Under the pieces are notes generated by a model that worked only from the letters and a program-made list of their open reading frames with translations, was not told the origin of the DNA and did no database searches. From contig JNEN01001161.1 of the NCBI GenBank assembly GCA_000697355.1, positions 62,001-126,000 on the forward strand: DNA of 64,000 nucleotides. Reading direction: 5' to 3'. Shown piece by piece: positions 1,362 through 54,066 of the stretch. The stretch comes from Syncephalastrum monosporum B8922 (Eukaryota; Mucoromycota; Mucoromycetes; Mucorales; Syncephalastraceae). Each line of letters begins with the position of its first letter. The first letter of the stretch is position 1. The position numbers and the translations under genes are program-made.

Positions 1362-1714
1362 TCAAACCCCTTTTGGTATGACAACGGTAATTTTATCCGC
1401 TGCCGCTCCCCAAGCAATGCGCTTATTGACAAAAAGGGCGTACCATGTGGTGAGGACAATAAACCACACACAGCAACCGATTGCTGACAGGAAGACAACT
1501 ATGTACAGAATTAACCTTTTTCTTCTGTTGGCATGAAAGAACGATGATGCTTACATTTACGCAGATCGGGCGGAGCAGAGGGCTTTCGACTGGCCCGGGC
1601 AAAGAAAACAACGTTAATCAGCCAAAGGAAGGGCAGAAACGCAAAGCCGCCATAAAACATCTTTTTGCAGAGAGACACAAGCTCGTCTGGCTTCATCTTG
1701 TCAATCTTGGCCAT
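1362..1714 (-). CDS. PEN2: Gamma-secretase subunit PEN-2
   Basis: Predicted small polytopic subunit of gamma-secretase, the intramembrane aspartyl protease built on presenilin. Two exons, 1714-1555 and 1498-1362, are joined by a 56-nt GT-AG intron and close in phase to a 98-residue protein; animal PEN-2 has about 101. The N-terminal half carries the family signature: LCKKMFYGGFAFLPFLWLIN at residues 15-34, the GGF-FLPFLW block being the hallmark. The second exon holds a second hydrophobic segment with FIVLTTW, then WGA-AD and a terminal IPKG, matching the conserved PEN-2 end (WGALGDYL...IPLG in animals). An in-frame upstream extension exists, but the Met at 1714 gives the family-length N-terminus. 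In the family PEN-2 stabilises presenilin and is needed for its maturation; it acts in ER/Golgi/endosomal membranes. Presenilin, nicastrin and APH-1 are not in this window. The neighbour RPA2 is unrelated. Confidence 0.88.
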
Positions 1715-2063: not shown

Positions 2064-3050
2064 TTAAAAGGATTCAGTGGACTTGAAGTGGTTATCGTCA
2101 ATGGTGGTGTAGCAGTGGCCTTCATTAGACAGGTATTCGATCGCATCGCGAATCTTGGTTTCGTCATGTTGACCACGGAGAGCGCTGAGGATGACATCTA
2201 CGCTCGCGCCCGTGTCCGATTCTTGATATTGCTTGATGATTTTCAGCACCTCGTCGTTCACATTGCCGCCCGACGCTGTAGAGTTGTTTGCCGTGCCCAT
2301 CGCCATGTCACCGCCACCAGCACCCTATGACCTGTGAGACACTACGTAGCTATCGCGTTTACCAACTTACAGGAGATCCCTTGGTAAGTCGCAGGTGGGT
2401 ACGAATGGCGTCCAGAAAGTGATAGCTGATCTCGTTGAAATCAGTAATGGGGACGATGCGGTAGCTGACGACGCTGATCTTGCCGTTGAACTGGTTGGGA
2501 CGACCAAAGACACGCACGTACATGTCCGTCTGGAGTTCGCGTCGTTCCGCAGCATTTTCAGCCGTTTCGGCCTGATCAATCCACCGCTTGACTTCCAGTG
2601 CGCCTGTGCCATCTTCAATCATATACGTCGAGTTGGTTGACAGCTCGGTGATGTTTCGGATCACGCCCACAAAGGTAACCTAGAAGCTGCCAGTCAGGTC
2701 TATTGCCCCCTGTTTTGCACTTCTTTCCGTTCTTTTGATCGCTTACTTGAGTGACATCGGCACCATCGATCCGCAGTGTACTGTCGTGCATCAAGTCAGC
2801 CTTGAGAAGTTGTCGCAGCGTAATGGGTCGCATTGTTTGCTCGCCCATCGGTCGCTACGTGAATGAGTGAGTATTTGAAATGGGGATCGAGGGGAGCAAA
2901 GATTCTGTTTGCTTACACGAGGGGCAGAAGCGCTCGTAGTACCCGAGTTGAACGAGGTGTCCATGTATCCACCGCCTTCAGAGTAGTCTAGCCGAATGCC
3001 ATGAGGATAAGAGCAAAGATTGAGCATTCATTAGCATTCATACCGTTCAT
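2064..3050 (-). CDS. RPA2: Replication protein A 32 kDa subunit (RPA2/Rfa2)
   Basis: Middle subunit of the trimeric single-stranded DNA binding complex RPA, used in replication, repair and recombination in the nucleus. The first coding exon is only ATGAACG (3050-3044); the next starts at 2987 and encodes a Ser/Gly/Tyr-rich tail (YSEGGGYMDT), the region phosphorylated in RPA2 proteins. Then come MRPITLRQLL, the start of the OB fold, and VTFVGVIRNI / YMIEDGTGALEVKRW, a classic RPA2 OB-fold pattern. The last exon (from about 2324) follows a Gly/Ala linker and encodes a C-terminal winged helix (DEVLKIIKQYQ to the end), the protein-interaction module. Order and length match the family. Exon edges in the middle are approximate; the identity is secure. 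Confidence 0.93.
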
Positions 3051-3623: not shown

Positions 3624-5423
3624 ATGACTACCACCGACCCATACTCCTATCTCGAAGGTTTTGGTAACCATTTTACCTCAGAGGCCAAACCAGACGCTCT
3701 TCCCAAAGGTACCGCACCTCTTCCCCCCTTCCTTTATTGATCTAAACTCCTCCCCCCCCTTTTTTCTTCCTTCCTTCTAGGACAAAACACGCCACAGAAA
3801 TGCCCCTACAACCTATATGCCGAACAGCTCTCCGGAAGTGCTTTCACGATGCCGAGAGCCCAGAATTTGCGAAGGTAAACAAAATACAGATACAGATGTT
3901 CAGTAGCCTGACAATAGGGTACTTCCATGACAGCTGGCTGTACCGTATTCGGCCCTCTGTGGTCCATGCGCCCTTTCAGCCCATGCAAGAGAACAACGCC
4001 CTTTTGGTTTCCAAATTTAACGAGTGCGAGGTGACTCCCACCCAGCTCCGATGGAGCCCGTTTGACCTGCCCAAGGAAGGTGACTCTGTCAACTTTGTGC
4101 AAGGCATCAAGACCGTGGCCGGTGCGGGTGATCCAGCCTGCCGTAGTGGTTTGGCTATCCATATTTACACCGCCAACAAGGATATGGACCGCAAAGCTTT
4201 CTACAACTCAGACGGCGACTTCCTGATCGGTATGTACGCACACATGAAGGAAAAAAAGCATATATTCTATGAATAGCTTACATGCAGTTATGATCAAGTC
4301 CCTCAACATGGACGATTGGATATCTTTACCGAATTTGGAAAAATGATGGTGGCTCCTAACGAAATCTGCGTCATTCAACGTGGCGTTCGCTTTTCTGTCT
4401 CCCTACCCGACAACACAGCGTAAGTTTTACAGAAAATATAAGCAAAGTGATTTGACTTTATTAATCGCTATTATAGACGTGGTTACATGCTCGAAATTTA
4501 CGGCCATCATTTTGAGTTGCCTGACCTCGGTCCTATTGGTAATTAATTGCACATTATGCAGTCAACATATGCCGACGCCTGATACCCATGCTAAAATCCA
4601 ACTTAGGTGCCAACGGACTCGCCAATCCACGCGACTTTGTGAGCCCTGTGGCGGCCTATGAAGAGGAAACCGACGTGGACTGGGACATCATTTCCAAGTT
4701 CAACGGCAAACTGTTTGTCGCACGTCAGAGGCATACGCCTTTTGACGTCGTGGCCTGGCACGGTAATTATGTGCCTTACAAGTATGATCTGGCCAAGTTT
4801 TGTGTCATCAACAGTGTGTCGTTCGACCATATTGTAAGTTGAATTTTTTTTATTTTTTTATTTTTTTATCTTGAACCTTGACAACTTCTATTTTTAACCC
4901 CTGCTTGCCCTGGATAGGATCCGTCGATCTTCACAGTGTTGACCGCAAAGTCTGACACACCCGGTCTGGCGATCGCTGACTTTGTCATTTTCCCACCACG
5001 TTGGGCTGTAGCAGACAAAACGGTAAATAGGACCCATCAAACCCGCAAACTGTCTGAAAGCGTACATTCTTTTATTGACCCTTTTTTCCCTGTCAGTTCC
5101 GCCCGCCCTATTTCCATAGAAACTGCATGTCCGAATTCATGGGGTTGATCTTGGGAGACTACGAAGGCAAATCGGGTGGCTTCTTACCTGGAGGTGCCTC
5201 GCTGCACAGCCCCATGACACCGCATGGACCCGATGCAGCCGTCTTTGAGGCCGCATCCAACGCTGACCTCAAGCCAGTGCGCGTTGGTGATCGCACGCAA
5301 TCCTTTATGTTCGAGACGAGCTTAATCTTGAATATTACACCCTGGGCGCTCAAGACCTGCGGCAAGGTGCAGGAAGATTACTACAAGGCTTGGGCCGCTC
5401 TCGAAAGCAAGTTCAACTCGTGA
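3624..5423 (+). CDS. HGD: Homogentisate 1,2-dioxygenase
   Basis: Fe(II) dioxygenase that opens the aromatic ring of homogentisate to maleylacetoacetate in tyrosine/phenylalanine breakdown (cytosolic). The start is the ATG at 3624, followed by [13 protein letters not shown], the conserved N-terminus. Exon 1 ends at 3708 and exon 2 starts at 3781; several further short introns follow (for example near 3876-3932, 4230-4290, 4833-4918 and 5022-5097). Family blocks in order: [67 protein letters not shown] and [10 protein letters not shown]. These include the conserved His and Glu positions that bind iron in the family. The last exon ends at TGA 5421-5423. No other gene of the pathway (fumarylacetoacetase, maleylacetoacetate isomerase) is nearby, unlike the clusters of some ascomycetes. 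Confidence 0.95.
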
Positions 5424-5561: not shown

Positions 5562-7557
5562 TCACGAAGAAACGGCCATTTTCCACATGCCGTTACGCCA
5601 TTCGGGCGCATTTGGGTTCAGACCTTTCTTATTAGACGGCTCGGATTGGTGTTGCGCGTAATGGTGTTGTTTGTTATTGTGATGGTGAGGACGGTGGGAG
5701 TGGTGTTGATGTCGGTGGAAATAATGCGTATGTGGTGAACCGGCCCGCGTGATAGGAGGGGACACAAGTGCCAGAGGGAAGTCGGCTGGGCGGCGCATGA
5801 CAGGCGTCGAATGCAGGCTAGTGACTGTACTACTGGGGATCTTGACACGACAGTGGATGAGCTCGCCGTCGATGTTTGTATTAAAGACAAGATAACCGTC
5901 TTCCTCCTTCACAGGCGATTGGGTCTGCTGTTTGGATGCGTGCTCGTTCCGAGGTCCTTGATAGCTCACCGAGGGCGATGAACAGGGCGTCGGCAGCTTG
6001 GCAATTTGGGGCGCCTGCTCTGCGTGGTGCTGGTGCTGGTACGGGTACACCTGTTGATGTGGGCGTTGCGCATGGTGCTGATAATGCTGCTGTTGTTGTT
6101 GTTGCTGCTGCTGCTGAGGATGGCGGTGCGGATGATGCTGATGCTGTTGGTGGTTGAAGTGCAGTTGCTGTGGCTCAACCATGGGTGCAGGAGGAGGACG
6201 GGGCTGGGAGCGCTTCTGCTGCTTGTTCATCGTGTTATGATTAGGTTTATTGCATGGCGGCGAGTTGGCACGGGTTTGTTTTGCACGCAGTTCAGCTTCC
6301 AGAGCTTGGATCCTGCGTCGCATCTGGTTTATCTGCATCATGTCCTCCGTTTTTTGTTTATGAAAGTCAACGTAGTCTTGCTCGAGCTGCTTGTATTTAG
6401 ACTGTTCGTCGAGGACCCGCATCTGCAGCGACTGGCATTCCTTCTGCAATGCTTGGACTTTCGAGCCAGAGCCGTCAGTCACGCGCTGCTGGCGTTGCTG
6501 CAGAGTGTGTTTCAGTTCATCCATGGTGCTTTTGATCATGTCACGCTCGGCTTGCAGACTACGGGAAGCGTCGGATGGATGCTGGCTGTTGTCGACTATG
6601 CAGCCTCGTGTGCGCTCCCTCGTCTCGTGCTGAGCCCCCTCCCGGTTCCCTGCATCTGTCGGCGTTGACAGGCCACGAGCATTGCGGGCATTGGACTCGA
6701 GTGCAGCCAAGCGTCGATGGAGGCGCTCCGTCGCACGCTCAAGGTCGTCCAGGCGCTGGACGGTGTTGTCTCGGCCTGACCTAGATTTATCATGGTGGTG
6801 ATGATAATGATCGGGATGCAGCACAATGTTATGGAGCAGGGGTCGCAAGTGTGCTTCTATTTCATGATCCATGCGGGAAGCAAGCATATCCCAAAACCGA
6901 TCCTGACAAGACGAGGGGTTTTGGTGTAAGGAGCAACAAAATGGATCAATTAGCTGCTGCTGTTGATGGTGCTGCTGGAGTTGATGAAGGGCTGCCCCTG
7001 TCGTATCGACCGTCATCCTGCGAGGCTGTTTGGGCGAAGGAATAGGAAGTTGAGTTTGTTTTTTCCTCGTGCTCGCTAATAGTTGGGGTCACTCACCAGT
7101 TGATCGTGTGTCTTGTGCTGCGTGCCACGGTGCCGCCGATTCGCCGCTGTCGGACCGGGCTCTTGGGATGTGCCTCGTGCCTTGGCATGCTCGATCACAC
7201 GGATGACGGCAGGATCATCGTACACCGCGGAGCCGAGTGCTGAAAGCGAAGCTCGATGAAACAATGCTGCTTCGCTATGATGCCATTAATTATTTTTGAG
7301 CTTTTCGACAGCATTTTACATATATGCATATATCTGTATAAAATATAAAATACCTTTCTAATTTTTCGGGTTTATCCATCCGAGAAGCGGGAAGGGTATG
7401 TGAATTCTCCTGTGAAAAAGCTCATCAGTAAAATTGTTCCCCTACACAAACATATAGTTTGTGAGTATTCTACCTCCATGGTCGCTGAGGACGAAGACGA
7501 CGAAGAACAAGCATCGGTTAGCGATTGGGGAGGTGGAGATGATGCGTTTGGATCCAT
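5562..7557 (-). CDS. Q/H-rich coiled-coil protein with C-terminal PAM2-like motif
   Basis: No named family is recognised. I assemble four exons: 7557-7474, 7409-7354, 7274-7097 and 7025-5562. All junctions are GT-AG and in phase, giving 593 residues. In order: a Ser-rich N-terminus; a block FHRASLSALGSAVYDDPAV; charged coiled-coil stretches in the middle (heptad-like segments around DDLERATERLHRRLAALE and later QALEAELRAKQ); a long Gln/His tract encoded by CAG/CAT-type repeats near 6040-6180; a short ordered-looking segment GYLVFNTNIDGELIHCRVKI; and a His/Asn-rich tail. The last residues contain KKGLNPNAPEWRNG, close to the PAM2 motif (LNPxAxEF) that binds the MLLE domain of poly(A)-binding protein; Trp replaces the usual Phe. 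I infer a cytoplasmic RNA-granule or translation link. The first exon and start are the least certain parts. Confidence 0.7.
6040..6185 (-). repeat. CAG/CAT trinucleotide tract coding poly-Gln/His
   Basis: On the plus strand this reads as TGTTG/CTG/GTG-rich triplet repeats; on the coding (minus) strand it encodes an uninterrupted Gln run flanked by His-rich sequence. It lies within the PAM2-type gene. Mixed CAA/CAG codons suggest it is old rather than a fresh expansion. The opposite strand gives a false Leu/Val-rich open frame. Confidence 0.75.
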
Positions 7558-20171: not shown

Positions 20172-23100
20172 TTAGAAGCCATAAGAGCCCTGCTGATGGG
20201 GAGGCGGCGGGCGAGCGCCGACGTACTGGCCGGGGCCCATGGGCGGTTGAGGCGATGAGGATGCAGAGGAATGTGTGGACGAGGCCCAAGGGCTAGGCTG
20301 ATCGTTTTGAGGCCGGAACGAGGGATAGTAGCCGCCAGCACCGGCACGGGCGGGCCCCTCCTTGGAGGGATCAAAGTAGTGTACTGGATCCTGACCACTG
20401 ATGTCCGAGCGACTGCTGTAAGCATCATCGTCTGCGCCAGGGTCGAGCAAGCCCCGCTTGCTCTCGTCCTCATCTCCCGGCACGACCGAGTGCATAAAGT
20501 GAACCGGACCCATCTCACGCAGTTGGCGCTCTTTGCGCTCGCGGCGCTTGAAGGCGCGGACACGCTTACGTTCGTAGTCTTCCCATCGCTTGAGCGGCAC
20601 GGAGGAGGGATCAAAGACACCGTCTTTGTTGGCATGATCGTCGCCCTTTTCGCCCTCGACCTTACGCGTCTCACCCCACGAGAAGTCATCGAAATGCCAG
20701 AAGGAGTAGACGGGCAGAATGAAGTTCCACACGGGCAGGGCAAGGAGATAGACAAACATCCAGGTGAGGTAGACCCACTTGCGGGTTGTGATCAGGATCA
20801 ATAAAGCCGGCGAGAAAAGCACGATAATGAGGAGGACCAGGGGCACAGCGGTCTGGAACGACGTGATTTGCGTGGATGCAATCGAGACAATCAAAACGAC
20901 GGTCAGACAGATGGCGACAGGCAGGGTGAGGGTACCAATCAAATCCATGAAGACGACAAACTGCATCGAGAAGCAGAAAGTACCACACAAGTTGCGGACC
21001 AGAACAAGCTCGAAAAGATTGTGGATGGTCGAATTGATCCAGCGGCGACGTTGGGACAGGAGGACCTTGAACTCGTCTGGCACGATGGTTTTGCAGATAG
21101 CCTGGGGTGTGAAACCCATCTTGCGGTAGGGGAAGTTCCGAAGCATAAGCGTGGTCAGGAAACGATCTTCACCGAGCAGGAGCAAGTTCTTTTGATGGAG
21201 TGTTTCAATCACGTTTGACGAGTATTCTTGGACAATTTCGGGCTTGGTGATGATCGGCACCCAGTCACCATCGCCCTTGCGAGCCTTGAGACGATACATG
21301 GAGAAACAACCAGGCAAACAGGTCACACCACCGAACACGGCTTCGAAACCCTTGGCAAGATGATGCGAAATGAAGTATTCGTAGACCTGGATGGCGGTGA
21401 CCCACGAGTCGCGCTTGTTGGCAATCTTGGTCTCGCCACACAAGCCCATCAACAAGTTGTCGTTGACCATGCAGTTGACAAGCACACGAAGAGCAGCCAT
21501 GTAAACCTTGGTATCAGCATCCACCTATAGACACATATGAATATCCTGCCTGTCCTTTGATTGGCATATGCTTACCATGAGACAGACTTCAAAGTAGTCG
21601 GGAGTAGCACCACCCATCAGGTAGGTAATCTTTTGGAAGAGATCGTAGTCGAGGGGAGTCATTCGGTCGTTGTAGGTAACACGGCTGAAGAAGTTCATGA
21701 GAATCAGCTGGGAATCACGCTTGCCACGGTTGCCGGCCTTAGGCTTGCCGTCTTCAGTAGGGTTGCCGCACTTGACGATTGTAATCATAGGCACCTTGTG
21801 TCCCTTGCAGACTGTACAACATACGCGGTGAGCTCATCTCTTCCCCGTTGTTTTCTGTTTTTTTTTATGGCTTACCATAGTGACCGGCATAGACCTTGGC
21901 GCGGTTGTACATCTTGGCACCGTTTGCGACAGCGATGTAGGCCTTGGGTTCGGGATTCTGCATGGCAGGGTTATCAAAGGTCATCAGCTCCAGGCACTGA
22001 TCGGGAGTGGTCTTTGTCTCGCCGTGGCCGGTGATGATACCGTCAGCAATGAGGAAGAGCAGCTTGCGGTCGTCAGGGTAGTCGGTCATGGAGAGCGATT
22101 CGACGGTTGCGCCGATACCTTCCTTGTTCTCGGAGTAACAGGTGACCAGCAGGACGGCAAAGAGGTCGTTGCCAACTTCGATTTGCTTGCCGGCAGGAAG
22201 ACCACCCGCGGCAACGCCAGGAGCAGGAGGCATGGGCTTGCCGATGGCCGACATTTCCATGGACTGGTTCGAGTGGACGAGCGCAGCCGAGCGAGGCATG
22301 GGCGGCGGGTTCTTGCTAAGCTTGCGCGAGAGGAACCAAGCAAAGATGAGGGCCATGAAGAACCGAGCAAACACGATGGACAGCACACACGCAAGCGCAA
22401 AGAACAGGATCAGCTGCGACGCGAAACAGCCAGGCGTGTCCTTGTCGATGTGGCCAGCACGGTACTTCTGGGTCAGACACTTGCTCGCCGCTTCGAGCTC
22501 AGCCTTGTGCGAAAACATCTTGGTCGCGTCACGGCCACCCTCGGCATAAGGCTGCTTAAGCATGTATCGAATGACTTCATCCAGCTCATCGTCGGCAAGA
22601 GCAGTCGGGTTCGCTTTAATGTAAGGGTCCATGTTAAGCACGACGCCGTCAATGACCATGAAGTTGGTGAGGTTGCTCGACGCCATCATGTTCCAGTCGT
22701 AGCCGACTTGCTTGGTCGTGTTGGTGATTTTGAGGTTTTCCAGATTAGAAGCAGACAAGGCACCCAAAGAGCAGCCGTCATTGCCATTGTTGGACGAGCA
22801 CGGGTTGAAAGTGACGGCCGTGAAGCTGTTGGCTTTGGTGTTACCAGTGTCTTGACACTCGGAAATATCGGTGCCGTGCGTAAAGTAGTTTGTAATGTCG
22901 GTGCCGGGGACGGATGCGATGCTGTACACATCCACGTTGTTGGTCACCTTGGCTTCAGAGATATTAAATTGCCAGCCGAGGATACCAAGCATGCCGGCTA
23001 CACATATTCATCATCATCATCAGTGTGAGTGTGGGCAATTAAGCGTGGTTACATAGAAAACACTTGCACCCCCCGCACCCCCAAAAAAAGAAAGAAATAG

Positions 23101-45118: not shown

Positions 45119-45272
45119 AATAAAACACGCTGTAAACACATTGTAATAAACTTTTGGCTGTCAAGAGCAGTAGCCGATACAGTATAAAGATCAATAATGA
45201 AATTGAAACCTGTACACACTTTATCCACAAATACCGACCCGCCGTTTTGTTAATAAGTCCATTGCTTTGATC

Positions 45273-47288
45273 ATGTCTCTCGAGCCAGAAGTGCCCTACG
45301 ATCCCCTCGAGCAGGAGCACGACACCTGGCGCGATGCGACTATTCTCTCGGACAGCAACGCGGTCCATACGAACGACGCCTTTGCAGCAGCAGACAACAC
45401 CGAAGATTACTACGATGCCACCCCAATGGACAGCAGCAAAGAACCCGACGGCTGCTGGATGTTCCCCCCTGAACATTCCCTCGCCGAGGTCCTCGGTCCA
45501 AACCGGGCCAATCTCAATTCTATCAAAGAAGAGACGAGCACCTACTTGGAATACAACGATGCAAAAAACCAGGTTGACATCTGGGGCCAGGCTGATCTCG
45601 TCTTGCGAGCGAAGCGTCTTTTGGACGGTATTGTCCGCAACCTCGCCGACAAGAAAGCCGACAGTACGCGTCGCAAGACAAAGAAGTGGGGCAAACCCGA
45701 GCGCGAGCTCACCCGCAAGGAAAAAGAACGCGTCGAGCGCAAGCTGCAGCACGAGCAGAAGATGAAGAGCTTTCAAGGCAAGCCGAGCGTGCCTCAGAAC
45801 TACAATGCCTACGTCACGCTCCCCAACCAGGATATCCCCGTCCTCAAGATCATGGGCGAACGCGAAGAAAGGGTGGCGAGCATCCGTGCCGACCTGCTGG
45901 TGTATGTGTACTACGACGAAAGACTCGCTGCGTTCCACATTGCGGGCGACGAGGAGTATCCCGTCCGGACTGCGGCCGAACGCGTCCGCAACCTCTACCT
46001 GCGCGCCGCCCGCCAGCCTTATAGCGCCACACTGCGTCTCATCAAGCAGCCTTCCAAGAACCTCACCGTCCAATTCGTCGAACTACCCTCGAACGCCCTG
46101 CGGTACGAGTATCTCCATGGTGACGACCATGCCACCAGTGTCCACCGCTACTACGAGTGCCACGAGCTCAAGGCCCCACGTCTGATTACCGACTACAGCG
46201 AACACCAGAATTTGATTGACTTTGATGAGACGCAAGACTCCTCGCCATCTCCGCTCCCCGAGCCACTCCAGTCGATCGACAAGACGAACGAAGAGAAAAT
46301 CACGGAGGCCCTCGAGCTCGGCCTGGAAAGCGTCCGTTTGAACGACTGGGAGCTTCAGATGAAAGTGCGCTTCGGTCAGACTCATCTTATTGACTACCCA
46401 AAGAAGGACTCGGTCTCTGTGGAAGGGTTGACCAAGTTCCTGCCGCACCCCCGGTTCCGATCAGAGCTTGCGCCCTGCATCGGCCGCACCTATGAACAGG
46501 TCAAGCCGCTTTTCGAATACCTCGATAGCACCTGCCTGCTGTTCAACAATATGCCTTACACACAGTACATCATCGAGGCCAGACAGCTCCCGACCATGCC
46601 TCAACAGGCGCCAAGCAACAGCCGCTTCAAGGAGCCACGCCCCTCCATACCTGAGGAATGGTCCACCAAAATGGTGGCTGAATTCGGTGAGCGTAGCGCA
46701 ACGCCTACTCGATGGCGTGTACTCGTGGAATGCCACGACCTGGTCAAAGTGAGCATGACCGACCTGGAGGCCCACTACGCATGGGACCTCAAGCTGCAGT
46801 ATGCCCGCCGCCTCAAGAGCGAGGGCGACACGCCCCACAACAAATTTGCTGAGCACCTGCGCGTGGACCACGAGAACCAGGAGCAGCGTCTTTCATACAT
46901 TTCCACGCAAGGCTATCGCCCTACCACGATCAAACAGAAAAAAATATGGGCATACGGCCACGGCGACTGGGTCTTTGAAGTCAAGCGAGAAGAACTTTGG
47001 GACATGCAGGACGTCGAGGTGACCAATCCTGGCCTGCCCGTCCACCTCTCGTCCATCCCCCCGCACCAAACTCAGTACAAGTTCTCGGCGCACAAGGAGG
47101 TCTGGCGGAACAAAATGTCGCATAACACCGACCTCAAGATGGGAGAGGCTCCCGAGTGGACCAGTAGGGACTTCCTGGCGCACGGAACTGACTCTGTCAA
47201 GGACATGATTTCGACCTCGCAGAAAGTTACAGACGACCTCCGCGCGCACGTGCCCATCTACTGGGAATCTGCACCCTCCTTAGTATAA
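45273..47288 (+). CDS. KH-domain protein, fungal type
   Basis: Intronless frame of 671 residues from the ATG at 45273; an in-frame TTG upstream is not a likely start. Residues about 68-115 read as a KH-like fold: PPEHSLAEVLGPNRANLNSI (with GPNRANL in place of the GxxG loop) and YNDAKNQVDIWGQADLVLRA. A basic stretch follows (RKTKKWGKPERELTRKEKER), then a large C-terminal region with further alpha/beta character (VASIRADLLVYVYYDERLAAF; KITEALELGLESVRLNDWEL; WAYGHGDWVFEVKREELW). The layout is like uncharacterised fungal KH proteins. RNA binding is inferred from the KH-like part; no enzyme motif is visible. Long antisense frames (45108-46073) are codon-bias shadows. Confidence 0.75.
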   Translation: MSLEPEVPYDPLEQEHDTWRDATILSDSNAVHTNDAFAAADNTEDYYDATPMDSSKEPDGCWMFPPEHSLAEVLGPNRANLNSIKEETSTYLEYNDAKNQVDIWGQADLVLRAKRLLDGIVRNLADKKADSTRRKTKKWGKPERELTRKEKERVERKLQHEQKMKSFQGKPSVPQNYNAYVTLPNQDIPVLKIMGEREERVASIRADLLVYVYYDERLAAFHIAGDEEYPVRTAAERVRNLYLRAARQPYSATLRLIKQPSKNLTVQFVELPSNALRYEYLHGDDHATSVHRYYECHELKAPRLITDYSEHQNLIDFDETQDSSPSPLPEPLQSIDKTNEEKITEALELGLESVRLNDWELQMKVRFGQTHLIDYPKKDSVSVEGLTKFLPHPRFRSELAPCIGRTYEQVKPLFEYLDSTCLLFNNMPYTQYIIEARQLPTMPQQAPSNSRFKEPRPSIPEEWSTKMVAEFGERSATPTRWRVLVECHDLVKVSMTDLEAHYAWDLKLQYARRLKSEGDTPHNKFAEHLRVDHENQEQRLSYISTQGYRPTTIKQKKIWAYGHGDWVFEVKREELWDMQDVEVTNPGLPVHLSSIPPHQTQYKFSAHKEVWRNKMSHNTDLKMGEAPEWTSRDFLAHGTDSVKDMISTSQKVTDDLRAHVPIYWESAPSLV

Positions 47289-47623
47289 GCCTAGTATAAG
47301 GTTCATTTGAGCACATATATACCTTGCATTTTTACAATAAGAGAAAGAAGCCACGACATGATGGAAAGAACTTCCCGGAGGCTCTCCAAAAAGAGAGCGT
47401 GGGCAGGGCGGGAAATTGTGTGATTGGCGGGAAGTTTTCCTGTATTGCTTACCTAAACGGGCCTAAGTGGGCGGCCATCTCTGGGTTCCCCCCCGCCGCC
47501 CGGTTTACCGTTTCGTATATATGCGTGCGACACCAGATTAAACGCTGTTCTTTCCTTTTATTGTTTGCATTCTTTTTCCCGTTTCTCACCTCTTTTCCAT
47601 CTTTTCATCACTTTCATAACACC
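47289..47623. promoter_or_regulatory. Promoter region of the aldose 1-epimerase gene
   Basis: Includes GTATATAT at 47515-47522, about 105 bases before the ATG, preceded by a C/G-rich block (CCCCCCGCCGCCCGG, 47489-47503) and GGCGGGAAG-type sequences. The 60 bases before the ATG are CT-rich. These look like a TATA element, GC-rich activator sites and a leader; the factor is unknown. Confidence 0.5.
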
Positions 47624-48782
47624 ATGCCCGTGACGAAGCAGAGCTTTGGTGCCAATGGCATCGACCAGTACACGCTGATCAACGAAAAGAAGACGCTGGC
47701 AGTCATGCTTCTCAACTATGGCGGCACGCTGACCCATATCCTCGTCCCAGACAAGAGGGGCCATATCCGGGACGTGGCGCTCGGCTTCGATGATTTTGAC
47801 AATTATAAGCGTGCCGAAAACCCTTACTACGGTGCTTTGATTGGCCGTTTTGCCAACCGCATCGGCGAAGGCAAGTTCTCGATCGATGGCAAGGAGTACC
47901 AGCTCGCGACCAACAACGGCCCCAACGCGCTCCACGGTGGTCTGGAGGGCTTTGACAAGAAGCTCTGGGACGTCAAGATTGTCTCGCAGAACCCGGCCAC
48001 GGTTGAGCTTGACCTCGTCTCGTCTGCAGGCGACCAGGGTTACCCGGGCACGCTCCACACCACCGTCATTTACACGGTGCACGACGACGCCTCGCTCGAG
48101 GTGCAGTACCGCGCCACAACCACGGCCGACACAGTCGTGAACCTGACGAACCACAACTACTTTAACCTGGCCGGTGTGTCCGAGAACCCCAAGGTCCTGG
48201 ACACCCGGGTGCAAATGCATGACGTCAAGGGCGTCCTTGAGCTGGATGCGAACGCGCTGCCCACCGGAAAGCAGCTCAGCTGGTCTGAAGCCCCGCAATT
48301 TGATTTCACGGTAAAATAGCAAAAAGAAAAAAAGGGAACTATCAGGCAAAGAAACGCGAAGCTCATGCCTCAGAAAGGGTAGCAAGGCAGGTACCACCAT
48401 TGGCGCTCGTTTCGACGAACTCAAGGACACGAATGGCTACGACCACCCATACGTCGTCCACAACGACTACTCGGTCGACACCTCAAAGCTGCCTTTGCGC
48501 CACGCTGTGACCGCGTTTAGCCCCGAAACGGGCATCCAGCTCGACTTCCATACCACCGAGCCCGCCTTCCAGCTCTACACAGGTAACTTCATCCCAGACG
48601 ATACCTTTGAGGGCAAAAAGAGCCAGAACAATGCCAAGTACGGTGTGCATGGCGGTTTCTGCCTCGAGAGCTCGCGTTTCCCCGATGCGCCCAACAAGCC
48701 CGACTGGCAGCCCATGTCGCTGCTCAAGCCAGGCGAGACCTACGCAAGCAAAACCGTGTTCCGTTTTGGTGCCCATGAATAA
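47624..48782 (+). CDS. GALM: Aldose 1-epimerase (galactose mutarotase)
   Basis: Interconverts alpha- and beta-anomers of galactose/glucose, the entry step of the Leloir pathway; cytosolic. Exons 47624-48310 and 48378-48782 join in phase to 363 residues, close to the family's usual 340-360. Signature blocks: NYGGTLTHILVPDKRG, GALIGRFANRIGEGKF, NNGPNALHGGLEGFDK, TNHNYFNLAG (catalytic His region) and GVHGGFCLESSRFPDAP (catalytic Glu region). The in-frame upstream extension to 47324 is non-conserved and contains the TATA region, so 47624 is the start. It converges with the beta-galactosidase gene, about 85 bases between stops, which suggests a shared role in galactoside use. Confidence 0.95.
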
Positions 48783-48866
48783 ATAAAGAATACTTGAGCA
48801 AATAGCAACATACTAAAATACGATTGGTATTCAAACAAAAGAAAATAAGAGATAAAGGGAAAAGGC

Positions 48867-51800
48867 CTAAATCGAGAATTTCGCCTCTTCCTTCCACACC
48901 ATGTACTCGGGTTGGGTCTCGTCCACGTTCCCACTGTCAAGTCGCACAGGCCAGCCGGCCACCATAATTTCGGCCGTGGTGTCTTGCCAGGTGTACACGA
49001 GCATCCGTACAACATTATGCTTCTTGACCAGACCGCCGGGCAAATAAAAGTCGTGCTGCGGTCCGTCGCCGTTGCCATAGTAGTCCGCGATCTGCACATC
49101 ATTCAGGAAGACGAAGGCGGTGAAGGGTCCGTTGAGATGGAGCCGGAGCGGGACCGTCATCGATGCGCTGGCGACCTTGCGCAGGTCGTCAAACTGGAAT
49201 CGGACCCACTGCGCGCCCTGCGCCTTGTTGACCGGGATGCGATAGATCCTGTCGTCATGCTCGGTTTGCATGGCCTGCCAGCCCGTCGAGACCTCCTGCT
49301 CGTCAGGGAAACCGATGGTGTTGAAGGGCTGCGGAAGCTGGCGGACGTCGGTGCCGGTGATCTGCCACGCCACGTCGCCTACCCCGTTCAGCTTGGCCTT
49401 CAAGATACCGCGCGGGTTGCGCACGTCGTTCATGATGAAGGCCTGTCGGCTCAGGCCAAAGCTATCGACGAGAATGACAAGCGTGTTGTGGTCCTGGAGG
49501 TCTGTGAGTGGGTACGTGTGCGTGCCGAGAAAAGGTGGGTCGGGGCCAATTTTGGCGCCGGGCGAGAAGAGCTGGCGTGAGTACGTCGTATGGCCGCCGA
49601 TGACCACGCCGTTCAGGATCACCGTCGCGCGGTTGCGCGCGTTGAGGCTCAACGAGACAGAGCGATTCGGATTGGCGAATTCAGTGCGGTACAGAACGTG
49701 ACCGTGGACGTACAGGTAGTCGAGATTTTCAAAAACCGGCGTGTTGCCGCGCTTCTGGATCGGGTGCCATGGCAGCGTGTCAAACTGGACTGTGCGCTCC
49801 TGCCATTTGTCAAGCGAGATGTCGACCGGCAGCGGGAAGCGCTGGTGGGCATGCGTCGACTCCATGACGTACAGAAAAGGCAGACCCGCATAGGGACCGG
49901 TGGTGGCAGGCGCAAAGCGGGTGTCGGTCGGCTTCTTGAAAGACAGGAGCGTGGCATGGCTGTCGGATCGGCGGAAATTGATCTCGAGCAGTTTCTTGTG
50001 GTTGTCGTAGTAGAAGGTATCAGCGCCCCAGGCAAAGAAGGCGGGGTATCGCTTCTGGCCTTCGTTCCAGAATGCGTCCTCAAAGTGGCCGTACAGTGTG
50101 TTGGCATCCTCACGTCGGATGCCGACGATGTACAGGTCACCGGTATTGGTCGAGAGCTTGATCCAGCCCGTGTGCTTGTCAAACTTGAGCATGTCGGCCG
50201 TTCCCTCGCGACGGAGTACGTCGTCTTGCATATTGCCCGAGACTTCCATGGTGCGGTGCTCAAACGCAATGCCACCAATCGGGTTGGGCTCGACAAGCCA
50301 GACCTCTTCTCTCGTTTCGGTATTGACCATGCGTGCATGGATAGGCAGCGTGGATTGGATCAGCTGAATGTCATTGACAGTCTTGTAGTTGCCGAGGCCG
50401 ATAAACGATGTCTTGTACGGCATATAGCAGCCCATGGTGAAATTGCCTCCATCATGGTCGACTGTGACGTCAAAAAGGTCCTCCTTATTGCGGGCAAAGT
50501 TGCGGAAGAAGGTAAACGTGACAGGCTGGTCCGATTCGACGGCTACGCGCTGATTATTGATGGTGTGGCGTACCGATGATTTGACGCTGTAGTTCTTGCG
50601 TTTCAAAATCTGCTCCGTCTTGGCAAAGTATGGGTCAAAGGAGCGGGCAAAGATGTTGGTCTCGCGGAGGTTGCGTCCACGTTCGGATAGGTAGCCGTAT
50701 TCGCGGATGCAAGCCGAATAGTCGTAAGAAGTATACACATCCCTAAACAAGTTAATAGCTTCTTTCAAACAGCTCACAGTGTGACTTACGGATCACCCAG
50801 TGCGCCCCAGTTCGTGCCGCCATAGCCCATGTACAGGTTGACCATGGTTACGCCTTGGGCTAACGAGGACTCATAGAGGATTTTGGTGTAGTAGGGGCCA
50901 TAATAATCGTAGATGGTGTCGTATGTGTGCTGCAACTGGTAATGATTAAACCAGCCGCCTTGAAGCTCTGGGATAAACATGGGCGACTATAATAGCAGGG
51001 CACGTCAGATAATAAGACAAGATACATATCGCCAGATGAAAGCTTACATCTCTCGCACCACTACCAAAAGCGCGGACAGTATGTTCCAGGCGGTCCATGG
51101 AATTCTCCAGCTGCTTGGCACTCCAGGGTTTCCAGCCAAGAGTGGAGTTACCCGTGTCAAAAAACCAGCTCGTCGGGTTACTGGTAGGTGCTAGGACTAG
51201 GATACACAGTTCAGAGACGGAGGCAAGACACAGAAGACAAGATACTTACCAACATACTTGTCAAATCCGTACCAATCCAGACCAAACGGTTTGTTTGACC
51301 AGACACTGACAGCAGGCCGTGCATCCAGTTCAGGACGCGGCACCCAGCTGCTCTCCTCAAAGCCGTCGTTGGAGAGCAAAGGCACGTGGATGCCCTCATC
51401 GCGCGCTGCTTTGGCGAGGACGCGCATCTGGTCACGCAGACCGATGGGCAGGATGATGGCCATCGTCTCAAAGAGTTCGTTGTCGAGCTGCAGACCAATG
51501 ACACAGCCGTTCTTTTTGTCTGTGATCTGGTGCTTGGCAATGATCGGAAGCACGTGATGGAGCCATTCTTTCTCGTACTCGGCAAAGTCGGGGTCGTACT
51601 CACGCCACAGCATGATTTTGTTATGCCGAATGCGAAGTTCGCGCTTGGCAATCAGCCACGGCGGATAACCACCTGCGGATGTCTCTGCGCAGATGTACGG
51701 ACCCGGCGCAGCCAGGACAAACAGGCCCATGTCCTCGCACAGGTCGAGGAGGTAGTCGACGTCGCGGTTGCCGTCAAAGAGATAGACGCCCTCGTCGGGT

Positions 51801-52117
51801 GAATGGTATCCCCAGTGGAAGTAGATGCGGATAGCGTTCATGCCCATGCCACGGTACTGCTTCAGGATATCGGGCCAGCGTTCACGGTCGGGCACGCGCC
51901 AGTAGTGGAATTCACCAGCAAAGATCATGGTGCGCTCGCCCGCAATCGTAATGCTGTACTTGTCCCAGTCAATGCGGTCATGGTAGGTGGTTCTGTCGTA
52001 GGCGACGGACGACGTGGTAATGTCGAGGAGGGTGCCGTACGTACGCTGGTGGGCATAGAAGATAAAGCCCGAAATGAAGATGGGTACAGCAGCAATCAGA
52101 GCGAAAAGAGGCCCCAT
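48867..52117 (-). CDS. Beta-galactosidase, GH35
   Basis: Glycoside hydrolase family 35 enzyme that cleaves terminal beta-galactose. From the ATG at 52117 the N-terminus has a short cytoplasmic end and one hydrophobic segment (FALIAAVPIFISGFIFYA), so a signal anchor or uncleaved signal is likely. The TIM-barrel part shows FAGEFHYWRVPDRERW, NAIRIYFHWGYHSPDEG, APGPYICAETSAGGYPPWL, GLQLDNELFE (acid/base Glu in NE), PMFIPELQGGWFNHY (nucleophile Glu in PELQGG) and NLYMGYGGTNWG. The long exon 50777-48867 holds the beta-sandwich domains and ends near VWKEEAKFSI. Introns lie at about 51246-51193, 51046-50988 and 50788-50745. An in-frame Met at 52288 would add residues of no conserved type. It is head to head with the BAF60 gene. 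Confidence 0.92.
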
Positions 52118-52286
52118 ATTGATTGACGAACTGTACGACACGTCTTCGTCCAGAGTAAAAGAGTAAGAAGCGCAAGCGCAAGAGATAAAGAGCGTGTAAT
52201 AGTGCGGGTGATTCAAGGACCGAAATGCTGCCCTATCAAATTGACAGACCCCCCTCTCCTCTTCCCTTTTTATTTTACCAAGTGCC
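52118..52286. promoter_or_regulatory. Short bidirectional promoter, GH35 / BAF60
   Basis: Only 169 bases lie between the two start codons, so the control regions of a catabolic enzyme gene and a chromatin-remodelling subunit gene overlap. The BAF60 side is CT-rich (CCCCCCTCTCCTCTTCCC). No TATA box is clear. Confidence 0.55.
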
Positions 52287-54066
52287 ATGTCTCAACCACC
52301 GCCACCCCAGGCGGGTGCCATCCCTCCACAGTCCATGCCCAATCAGCCCATGCAGTACAGAAAAAGACCCAGTGAGGCTGATTCCCTCTCCAAGCATATC
52401 AAGTACGCCTTCATTCTCACAGCGGGTCCAATCACACAGCTCACGTCATGTTTATAGAAAGAAGCGTCCGACCGATCGCAACATGCCTCCCAAGGTAGAG
52501 TAGCCACTACCCACCACCCACCACCCACAACCCACTACCCTGCCCCACGACTTGACCCGACGTACTCATCCCATGCGCTGTGCGGCTCTATAGATTGAGG
52601 CATTCGTTCCGGAATCCAAATTATACACAGAACTGACCGAATTCGAAAAGAAGCTCGACGCCACCATCATGCGAAAGCGTTTGGACATTCAGGAAGCCCT
52701 GGGCAAACCGACCAAGGTAAATACAGTCCAACAGCTGCTCATTCAAAGCATTCCACCCATGAACCATTCCGTAGACGCGTCGCACACTGCGGATATTCGT
52801 TTCCAATACAGCGGCAGACCAGACATCACAAAGCGGCGACGACGAAAACGCGTTCGATTTGAACAGCGGCAATGCCCCTTCCTGGACCCTCAAGATCGAG
52901 GGCCGTCTGCTCGATGTAATAACTAACAAACACAGCATGATCTGACACGTTACTGAACTGATTTTCCATAACAGCCCCCGATCCCCACCAAAAAGGCACA
53001 GCCTGTCCAGAAATTCACATCCTTCTTCCGGTCCATCCTCGTCGAGATGGACAGAGACCCCAAAATGTACCGCGATGGCAGCAATGTAGTCGAGGTAAGA
53101 CATGGACTCGTCCGGCCTGGGCAGAGGTGTCTAATGTCTCTATCTGCAGTGGCACAAGCAAGCCAATGCACCCGAATACGATGGCGTTGAGATCAACAGA
53201 CGCGGCGACACGAACGTCAAAGTGCGCATCGTCCTCGACCCCGAGTACATTCCTCAAAAGTACAAGCTCAACCCTGCTCTTGCGGATCTGCTGGACATGA
53301 AGCTCGAGACGAAGCCCCAAATCATTATGGGCCTGTGGAATTATGTCAAGGTATAATGATGACACGCACTTACACAAACAAAAAAATAGAATACTCCCAG
53401 GTATCAGTCATTGATTCATTTCTATATAGAACAACAAACTTCAAGATGCCGAAGATAAGCGATTGATTCGCTGCGATCCTCGACTGCAGCAGGTAAAAAA
53501 ACAGAAACAAATTCAGAGATCAAATCGTCTGACCCGAATGCATGCTACAGTTGTTTGGTGTGCCTCAAATCCACTTTGCGCAGCTTCCCGATCTCATTAA
53601 CCATCACTTGTCCCGCCCCGATCCTATTGTGATCAACTACACCATCCGGGTCGACAAGGAATTCCACCAATCCGCCCAGGCCTACGATTTGGATGTCGAA
53701 CTTGACAGTGTGGTGCGGACCAAGATGATGCAAACCGTAGCAGCCACGCAGACCCAAAAGGAGATCATGCAGCTCGATGATAAGATTGTTCAGTGTGTGC
53801 AGAGTATCAACAACTCCAAGATCAAGCGTGACTTCTTAATGCAGTTTGCTCAGCATCCTGTTGAGTTTATCAACAAATGGATCGCAAGCCAGGCCCGCGA
53901 TCTCGAAGTCATCCTGGGCGAGACCAAAGTCAACCTCGAGGAGATGCGCCAGACCGACTTTTACAAGCAGCCCTGGGTCAAGGAGGCTGTCTTCCACTAC
54001 CTGACGGCCAAGACCCAGCAGCGCATGCAGGAGCTCCTCAACACCCAGCGTGCGCCACCCCAGTAG
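52287..54066 (+). CDS. SWI/SNF complex BAF60/SMARCD (Rsc6/Snf12-like) subunit
   Basis: Accessory subunit of SWI/SNF-type chromatin remodellers. Exon 1 starts with a Pro/Gln-rich tail (ATG 52287). Short exons follow: KKRPTDRNMPPK, then IEAFVPESKLYTELTEFEKK. After an intron comes RRTLRIFVSNTAADQTSQ and APSWTLKIEGRLLD, the conserved core. Next are RSILVEMDRDPKMYRDG and VRIVLDPEYIPQKYKLNPAL. The SWIB domain runs through IIMGLWNYVKNNKLQD, LIRCDPRLQQLFG and IHFAQLPDLINHHL. The C-terminal helical part (ALEKEI-like MLQLDDKIVQCVQSINN; RDFLMQFAQHPVEFINKW) matches SMARCD proteins. About seven introns are present, one containing five C-tracts (52508-52540). The stop is at 54064-54066. Confidence 0.93.
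52508..52540 (-). other. Potential G-quadruplex in a BAF60 intron
   Basis: The plus strand has five CCC tracts separated by exactly four bases (ACCA, ACCA, ACAA, ACTA), so the opposite strand can form G3N4 quadruplexes. It lies in an intron right after a donor, on the non-transcript-like strand. Confidence 0.6.

Follow-up and report, generated by a model that had tools for sequence, protein, structure and literature searches.

Does a fungus that carries a gene for PEN-2, a gamma-secretase subunit, possess the rest of the complex, and what would the complex do there? The question is raised by a locus at positions 1362 to 1714 of the window, the 64,000-nucleotide stretch of DNA analyzed here. 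Gamma-secretase mostly comes up in work on Notch and Alzheimer's disease, and the original prediction for this locus treated a fungal subunit as a novelty, echoing an older view. In the passages of Gazave et al. 2009 (PMC2770060) that deal with fungi, presenilin, nicastrin, APH1 and PEN2 are described as absent from Fungi, on the basis of four sampled fungal genomes, one of them from a microsporidian. The surprise has since been answered in print, because the main text of Merenyi et al. 2023 reports gamma-secretase for non-Dikarya fungi, and the set described here is one instance of theirs. Our analysis indicates that the locus very probably encodes the PEN-2 of a Mucorales fungus akin to Syncephalastrum, and that this protein would assemble with the organism's own presenilin, APH-1 and nicastrin into gamma-secretase.

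The PEN-2 gene

The gene lies on the minus strand and consists of two exons separated by one intron. Exon 1 (160 nt, positions 1555 to 1714, start codon at 1714 to 1712) encodes the N-terminal membrane hairpin with GGFAFLPFLW, and exon 2 (137 nt including the stop codon, positions 1362 to 1498) encodes a transmembrane segment, WGAAAD and the terminal TVVIPKG. The intron between them (56 nt, positions 1499 to 1554, GTAAGC...ACATAG) is of the GT-AG type and in phase 1. The spliced product has 98 residues and contains GGFAFLPFLW, WGAAAD and IPKG exactly. The identity, length, coordinates, intron and motifs originally predicted were all accurate. Its sole Pfam match is the PEN-2 family, PF10251, at 103.6 bits (E 7.6e-30) against a curated cut-off of 25 bits, and this match spans residues 10 to 97 and profile positions 3 to 93 of 93, the full length of the family. 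As a control for chance, a PEN-2 profile was built from 30 of 31 homologues, leaving out the short P0031 and the window's own protein. Among the 1980 stop-to-stop frames of the window, the two PEN-2 exons scored 78.5 and 76.3 bits and two further frames 7.9 and 7.1 bits, compared to a top score of 10.7 bits on 20 triplet-shuffled windows.

The homologues place the protein among fungi. All 24 of the 31 that carry an organism name are Mucoromycota; the nearest, at 90% identity, is from Syncephalastrum racemosum (P0001), and the other 23 are 55-70% identical to the window protein. Most of these PF10251 members have the same length as the window protein; the S. racemosum sequence comes from another species or strain, and its database model begins six residues later. 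The PEN-2 chain of the solved human gamma-secretase (5a63_D) also matches over nearly its full length, at 77.1 bits, although the fungal inter-helix loop is three residues shorter in the alignment and the C-terminus reads DKITVVIPKG rather than DYLSFTIPLG. The Asp and the TVVIPKG of this C-terminus do not vary across the 31 rows of the alignment. The DYLSF motif, which has a role in animal PEN-2, is absent here, with DKITV in its position, and we take it to be an animal trait outside the definition of the family.

A predicted fold is consistent with these alignments. AlphaFold2 was run on P0001, as a 90% identical stand-in for the window protein, with 22 relatives, and gave a mean pLDDT of 81.5 (44-67 over the last ~20 residues) and a pTM of 0.60. 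Predicted helices at residues 3-19, 23-36 and 43-84 form an N-terminal hairpin and one transmembrane helix. In a Foldseek search, three human PEN-2 chains were the only matches at E <= 0.001 (E 6.8e-5 to 1.8e-4), with TM-scores of 0.71-0.75 but an rmsd of 7.4-7.6 Å.

The intron has independent support, because an insertion occupies the same position in five metagenome ORFs (P0023, P0026, P0028, P0029 and P0030), each of which reads C-K at that point, as does the window when translation continues through its T|GTAAGC donor (...DLRKCKHHR...). These ORFs are taken to be unspliced PEN-2 genes that share the intron position. No second PEN-2 locus was found in a family search over the organism's own genome (27.5 Mb in 198 contigs). 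A pseudogene reading was considered and dropped. To judge from its sequence, positions 1362 to 1714 hold a real, intact and normally spliced PEN-2 gene, and the locus is ordinary for its lineage.

Several other genes were recognized in the window. The neighbors of PEN-2 are an OB-fold gene (2064-3030, minus strand), presumably encoding a protein like the 32-kDa subunit of replication protein A, and a homogentisate 1,2-dioxygenase gene (3625-5420, plus strand); for each, one exon frame was tested and the bounds are estimates. Within 20172-21524 and 45207-52291 lie a chitin synthase gene, a DUF7905 gene, an aldose epimerase gene and a family 35 beta-galactosidase gene (two frames). A 508-residue frame rich in Gln and His (5562-7088, minus strand) had no Pfam match at E 0.001. 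No Rfam match was found in the window, nor any tRNA under bacterial settings.

The other subunits of gamma-secretase

Family searches over the same genome located a presenilin gene on contig C155, an APH-1 gene on C79 and a nicastrin gene on C174, so all three partners that the original prediction called for could be found and modeled. The models were assembled by hand, and their GT-AG, frame-keeping junctions were picked for those properties. The presenilin model (C155 97078-94867, minus strand, within the region 93800-98200) has 588 residues in 9 exons with 8 introns, and the nicastrin model 669 residues in 11 exons with 10 introns; the APH-1 model has 243 residues in 3 exons with 2 introns, of which the second has the least certain junction of all, being a choice between alternatives.

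The presenilin model matches PF01080 at 394 bits and carries AVWDLVAVLCP, GLGD and ALPALP, thus both catalytic aspartates and the PAL motif, and it aligns with human PSEN1 over both catalytic segments. A Trp precedes the first Asp, a difference from human gamma-secretase. In a motif search among the best 120 of 1190 presenilin matches, W-D was present in TM6 of 116 rows and GLGD in 117, and no Y-D row was found. We considered W-D, as opposed to Y-D, as a special feature and dropped the idea; it is not claimed as new, because it is this frequent, also occurs in the nematode Trichuris (P0114), and is allowed for in the motif as Gazave et al. 2009 (PMC2770060) write it, Y/WD. The genome has a separate signal peptide peptidase locus on C44, so confusion of presenilin with that protein is unlikely. 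The Asn of TM4 is kept, reading YNW here against an LWNF consensus, and is invariant in 38 relatives. In animals, the Asn of this WNF motif faces PEN-2.

The APH-1 model matches PF06105 at 159 bits (cut-off 25.6) and aligns with residues 1-183 of human APH-1A, and its seven helices were not separated by a simple hydropathy scan. The nicastrin model contains both lobes (PF18266 at 151 bits and PF05450 at 111 bits) and a C-terminal hydrophobic segment, and no N-terminal membrane or signal segment passes a hydropathy threshold of 1.6 (best 1.58). It is 86% identical to the S. racemosum protein, the best of 78 matches, which together with the 90% identity of PEN-2 makes the organism probably another Syncephalastrum or a near relative of that genus. 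The best PDB match of the nicastrin model, at 222.9 bits, is 4r12_A, whose entry bears the name 'Putative uncharacterized protein' and which we take to be nicastrin of Dictyostelium purpureum and to which it is closer than to human nicastrin; the Glu in AETWGLAGS is kept, aligned with AERWGYVGS of 4r12. Two motifs that carry meaning in animals are altered: the G-G-G spacing in TM4 of APH-1 reads G-A-A, and the DYIGS region of nicastrin reads GLAGS. The four subunits, the catalytic aspartates and the PAL motif are common to the human complex and the fungal set. Because the genome encodes APH-1, nicastrin and a presenilin with both catalytic aspartates in addition to PEN-2, the four-subunit gene set, and with it the predicted gamma-secretase complex, is complete.

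A proposed function and its alternatives

In animals, PEN-2 completes gamma-secretase and triggers the maturation of presenilin. Given the conserved TM4 Asn, the conserved body of PEN-2 and the full gene set, the role of PEN-2 here is most likely the same as in the known family, and assembly, endoproteolysis and activation by PEN-2 would proceed as they do in animals. A sheddase would first leave stubs of single-span proteins in the membrane, and the mature enzyme would then cut these inside the bilayer. An ADAM-like gene is present: a disintegrin domain at C197 6595-9714 with a HEIGHGFGAIH zinc-protease motif upstream makes this locus a candidate for an ADAM-like sheddase. Another disintegrin match, at C12 6157-9276, has no such metalloprotease motif in that 3.1 kb. 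Of the originally predicted active complex in an early-diverging fungus, the PEN-2 identity, the early-diverging host and the presence of all four genes are borne out, and activity is what we infer from them.

We know of no substrate of gamma-secretase in any fungus, which would suit a complex kept mainly for a non-proteolytic role such as scaffolding or trafficking. A role of this kind has been proposed for moss presenilin, and gamma-secretase-independent presenilin functions in moss and mammals are cited in the relevant passages of Gazave et al. 2009 (PMC2770060). Retention for such a role is nonetheless unlikely in our estimation, given that the catalytic motifs are kept in nearly all of the best 120 of 1190 presenilins (116 rows for W-D, 117 for GLGD) and that many of the groups with presenilin have also retained PEN-2 and nicastrin. 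Both of these subunits are needed for proteolysis in animals. That PEN-2 is an orphan remnant without a complex is scarcely credible and is refuted by the gene content, since the other three subunits are present and readable in frame. Contamination from an animal or protist, or a recent transfer, might be suspected because fungi were long thought to lack gamma-secretase (Gazave et al. 2009, PMC2770060, in its passages on Fungi), but is just as improbable, being contradicted by the ranking of the homologues, whose 24 named members out of 31 are assigned to Mucoromycota, by the shared intron position, and by the position of the window within a 358-kb contig with ordinary genes such as those for homogentisate dioxygenase and chitin synthase. 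Proteolysis by a complete four-subunit complex thus remains the reading that we prefer.

A MYND zinc finger on fungal presenilin

Residues 24-63 of the presenilin model match the MYND zinc finger family, PF01753, at 27.5 bits (cut-off 22.7), and the Cys and His zinc ligands are present. The finger also matches ZMYND12 in the PDB (E 3.1e-5), and a 49-nt intron (C155 96735-96783, GTGAGT...CTAAG) separates the exon that encodes it from the presenilin part. Human PSEN1 and PSEN2 chains match the fungal presenilin only outside the finger, a difference between the human and fungal forms.

The finger is widespread among related presenilins. PF01753 was matched at E <= 0.001 in 73 of the best 120 of 1190 rows (45 of 60 and 28 of 60), and a finger model built from 66 of these presenilin proteins themselves gave 69 full, 7 partial and 44 absent fingers among the same 120. 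Bearers include Mucorales, Mortierellomycotina, Glomeromycotina, Basidiobolus, Syncephalis (partial), chytrids, Blastocladiomycota and an aphelid; within the best 120 of 1190, the finger was not seen in Piromyces, Gonapodya, Hyaloraphidium, several Spizellomycetales, a second aphelid, Thamnocephalis, Bifiguratus or Trichuris. Two monoblepharid chytrids are among the rows without it, and aphelids are placed in Fungi by the NCBI taxonomy. Truncated gene models probably account for some of the finger-less rows: in 19 of the 44, a rough motif search, which in some cases probably puts TM1 in the wrong place, leaves fewer than 60 residues ahead of TM1. The comparison with non-Fungi is thin, with Trichuris the sole such organism among the 107 named of the best 120 of 1190 rows, and no Syncephalastrum name occurs among those 120. 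One further architecture was noted in P0100 of Rhizophagus irregularis (701 residues), for which precomputed domains are a gamma-glutamyl cyclotransferase (GGACT), MYND and presenilin; the GGACT may be a third fused domain or the result of a merged gene model.

Median pairwise identity in a 38-row alignment was 50% in the finger, 14% in the linker behind it, and 60% and 72% in the membrane parts. These rows were picked from the 120 for having the finger, and the invariance of the zinc ligands among them is partly due to that choice. Because the finger is conserved while the linker behind it is not, we read the pattern as pointing to selection on the finger. In a presenilin tree of 43 rows (42 picked from the 120 plus the organism's own model), the finger occurs both in a chytrid clade and in a group of zygomycetes, Blastocladiomycota and aphelids, and its distribution takes 7 changes to explain (at least 4 if judged by the starred branches), compared with a mean of 12 after shuffling. 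One early gain followed by several losses fits as the simplest reading, and falls short of proof because the root is not fixed and Trichuris sits on a very long branch. A fold prediction for P0032 of Radiomyces with 37 relatives (mean pLDDT 64.9, pTM 0.51) was confident in the MYND region (residues 21-70, ~90-95) and below 50 over most of two linkers. All 19 of its Foldseek matches at E <= 0.001 were human presenilins, and the best match of the finger was the MYND domain 2dan, weak by E-value (0.16) with a probability of 1.00.

In other proteins, MYND fingers bind short peptides that contain proline, and the N-terminus of presenilin lies on the cytosolic side in animals. We propose that the finger would sit in the cytosol and dock partners, substrate tails or their released domains, and its conservation suggests that fungal gamma-secretase contains an integral docking module on the cytosolic side. 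More tentatively, and with slightly more doubt than belief, we suggest that fungal gamma-secretase is a distinct variant, in which a cytosolic MYND finger was added to the N-terminus of presenilin at the root of Fungi, aphelids included, or earlier, was retained in most lineages outside Dikarya and disappeared from some, and serves to recruit the tails of substrates or the intracellular domains that cleavage releases. Neither MYND nor zinc finger is mentioned in the main text of Merenyi et al. 2023, and no description of a MYND-presenilin fusion was found among the papers listed in searches of the open-licence literature, judged partly by title.

Implications

In one genome, this analysis confirms the full gamma-secretase gene set of a non-Dikarya fungus, at the level of predicted splice sites and of catalytic residues. 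Since yeast, the usual fungal model, belongs to Dikarya and lacks gamma-secretase (Merenyi et al. 2023, main text), a simple system in which the complex is native could be found in a zygomycete or a chytrid. The MYND-presenilin form is a more interesting lead than the PEN-2 finding itself, and offers a handle for finding substrates. If the proposal is correct, the protease and the handling of its effectors would be fused in one protein, and the binding partners of the finger would give a direct route to the substrates of fungal gamma-secretase.
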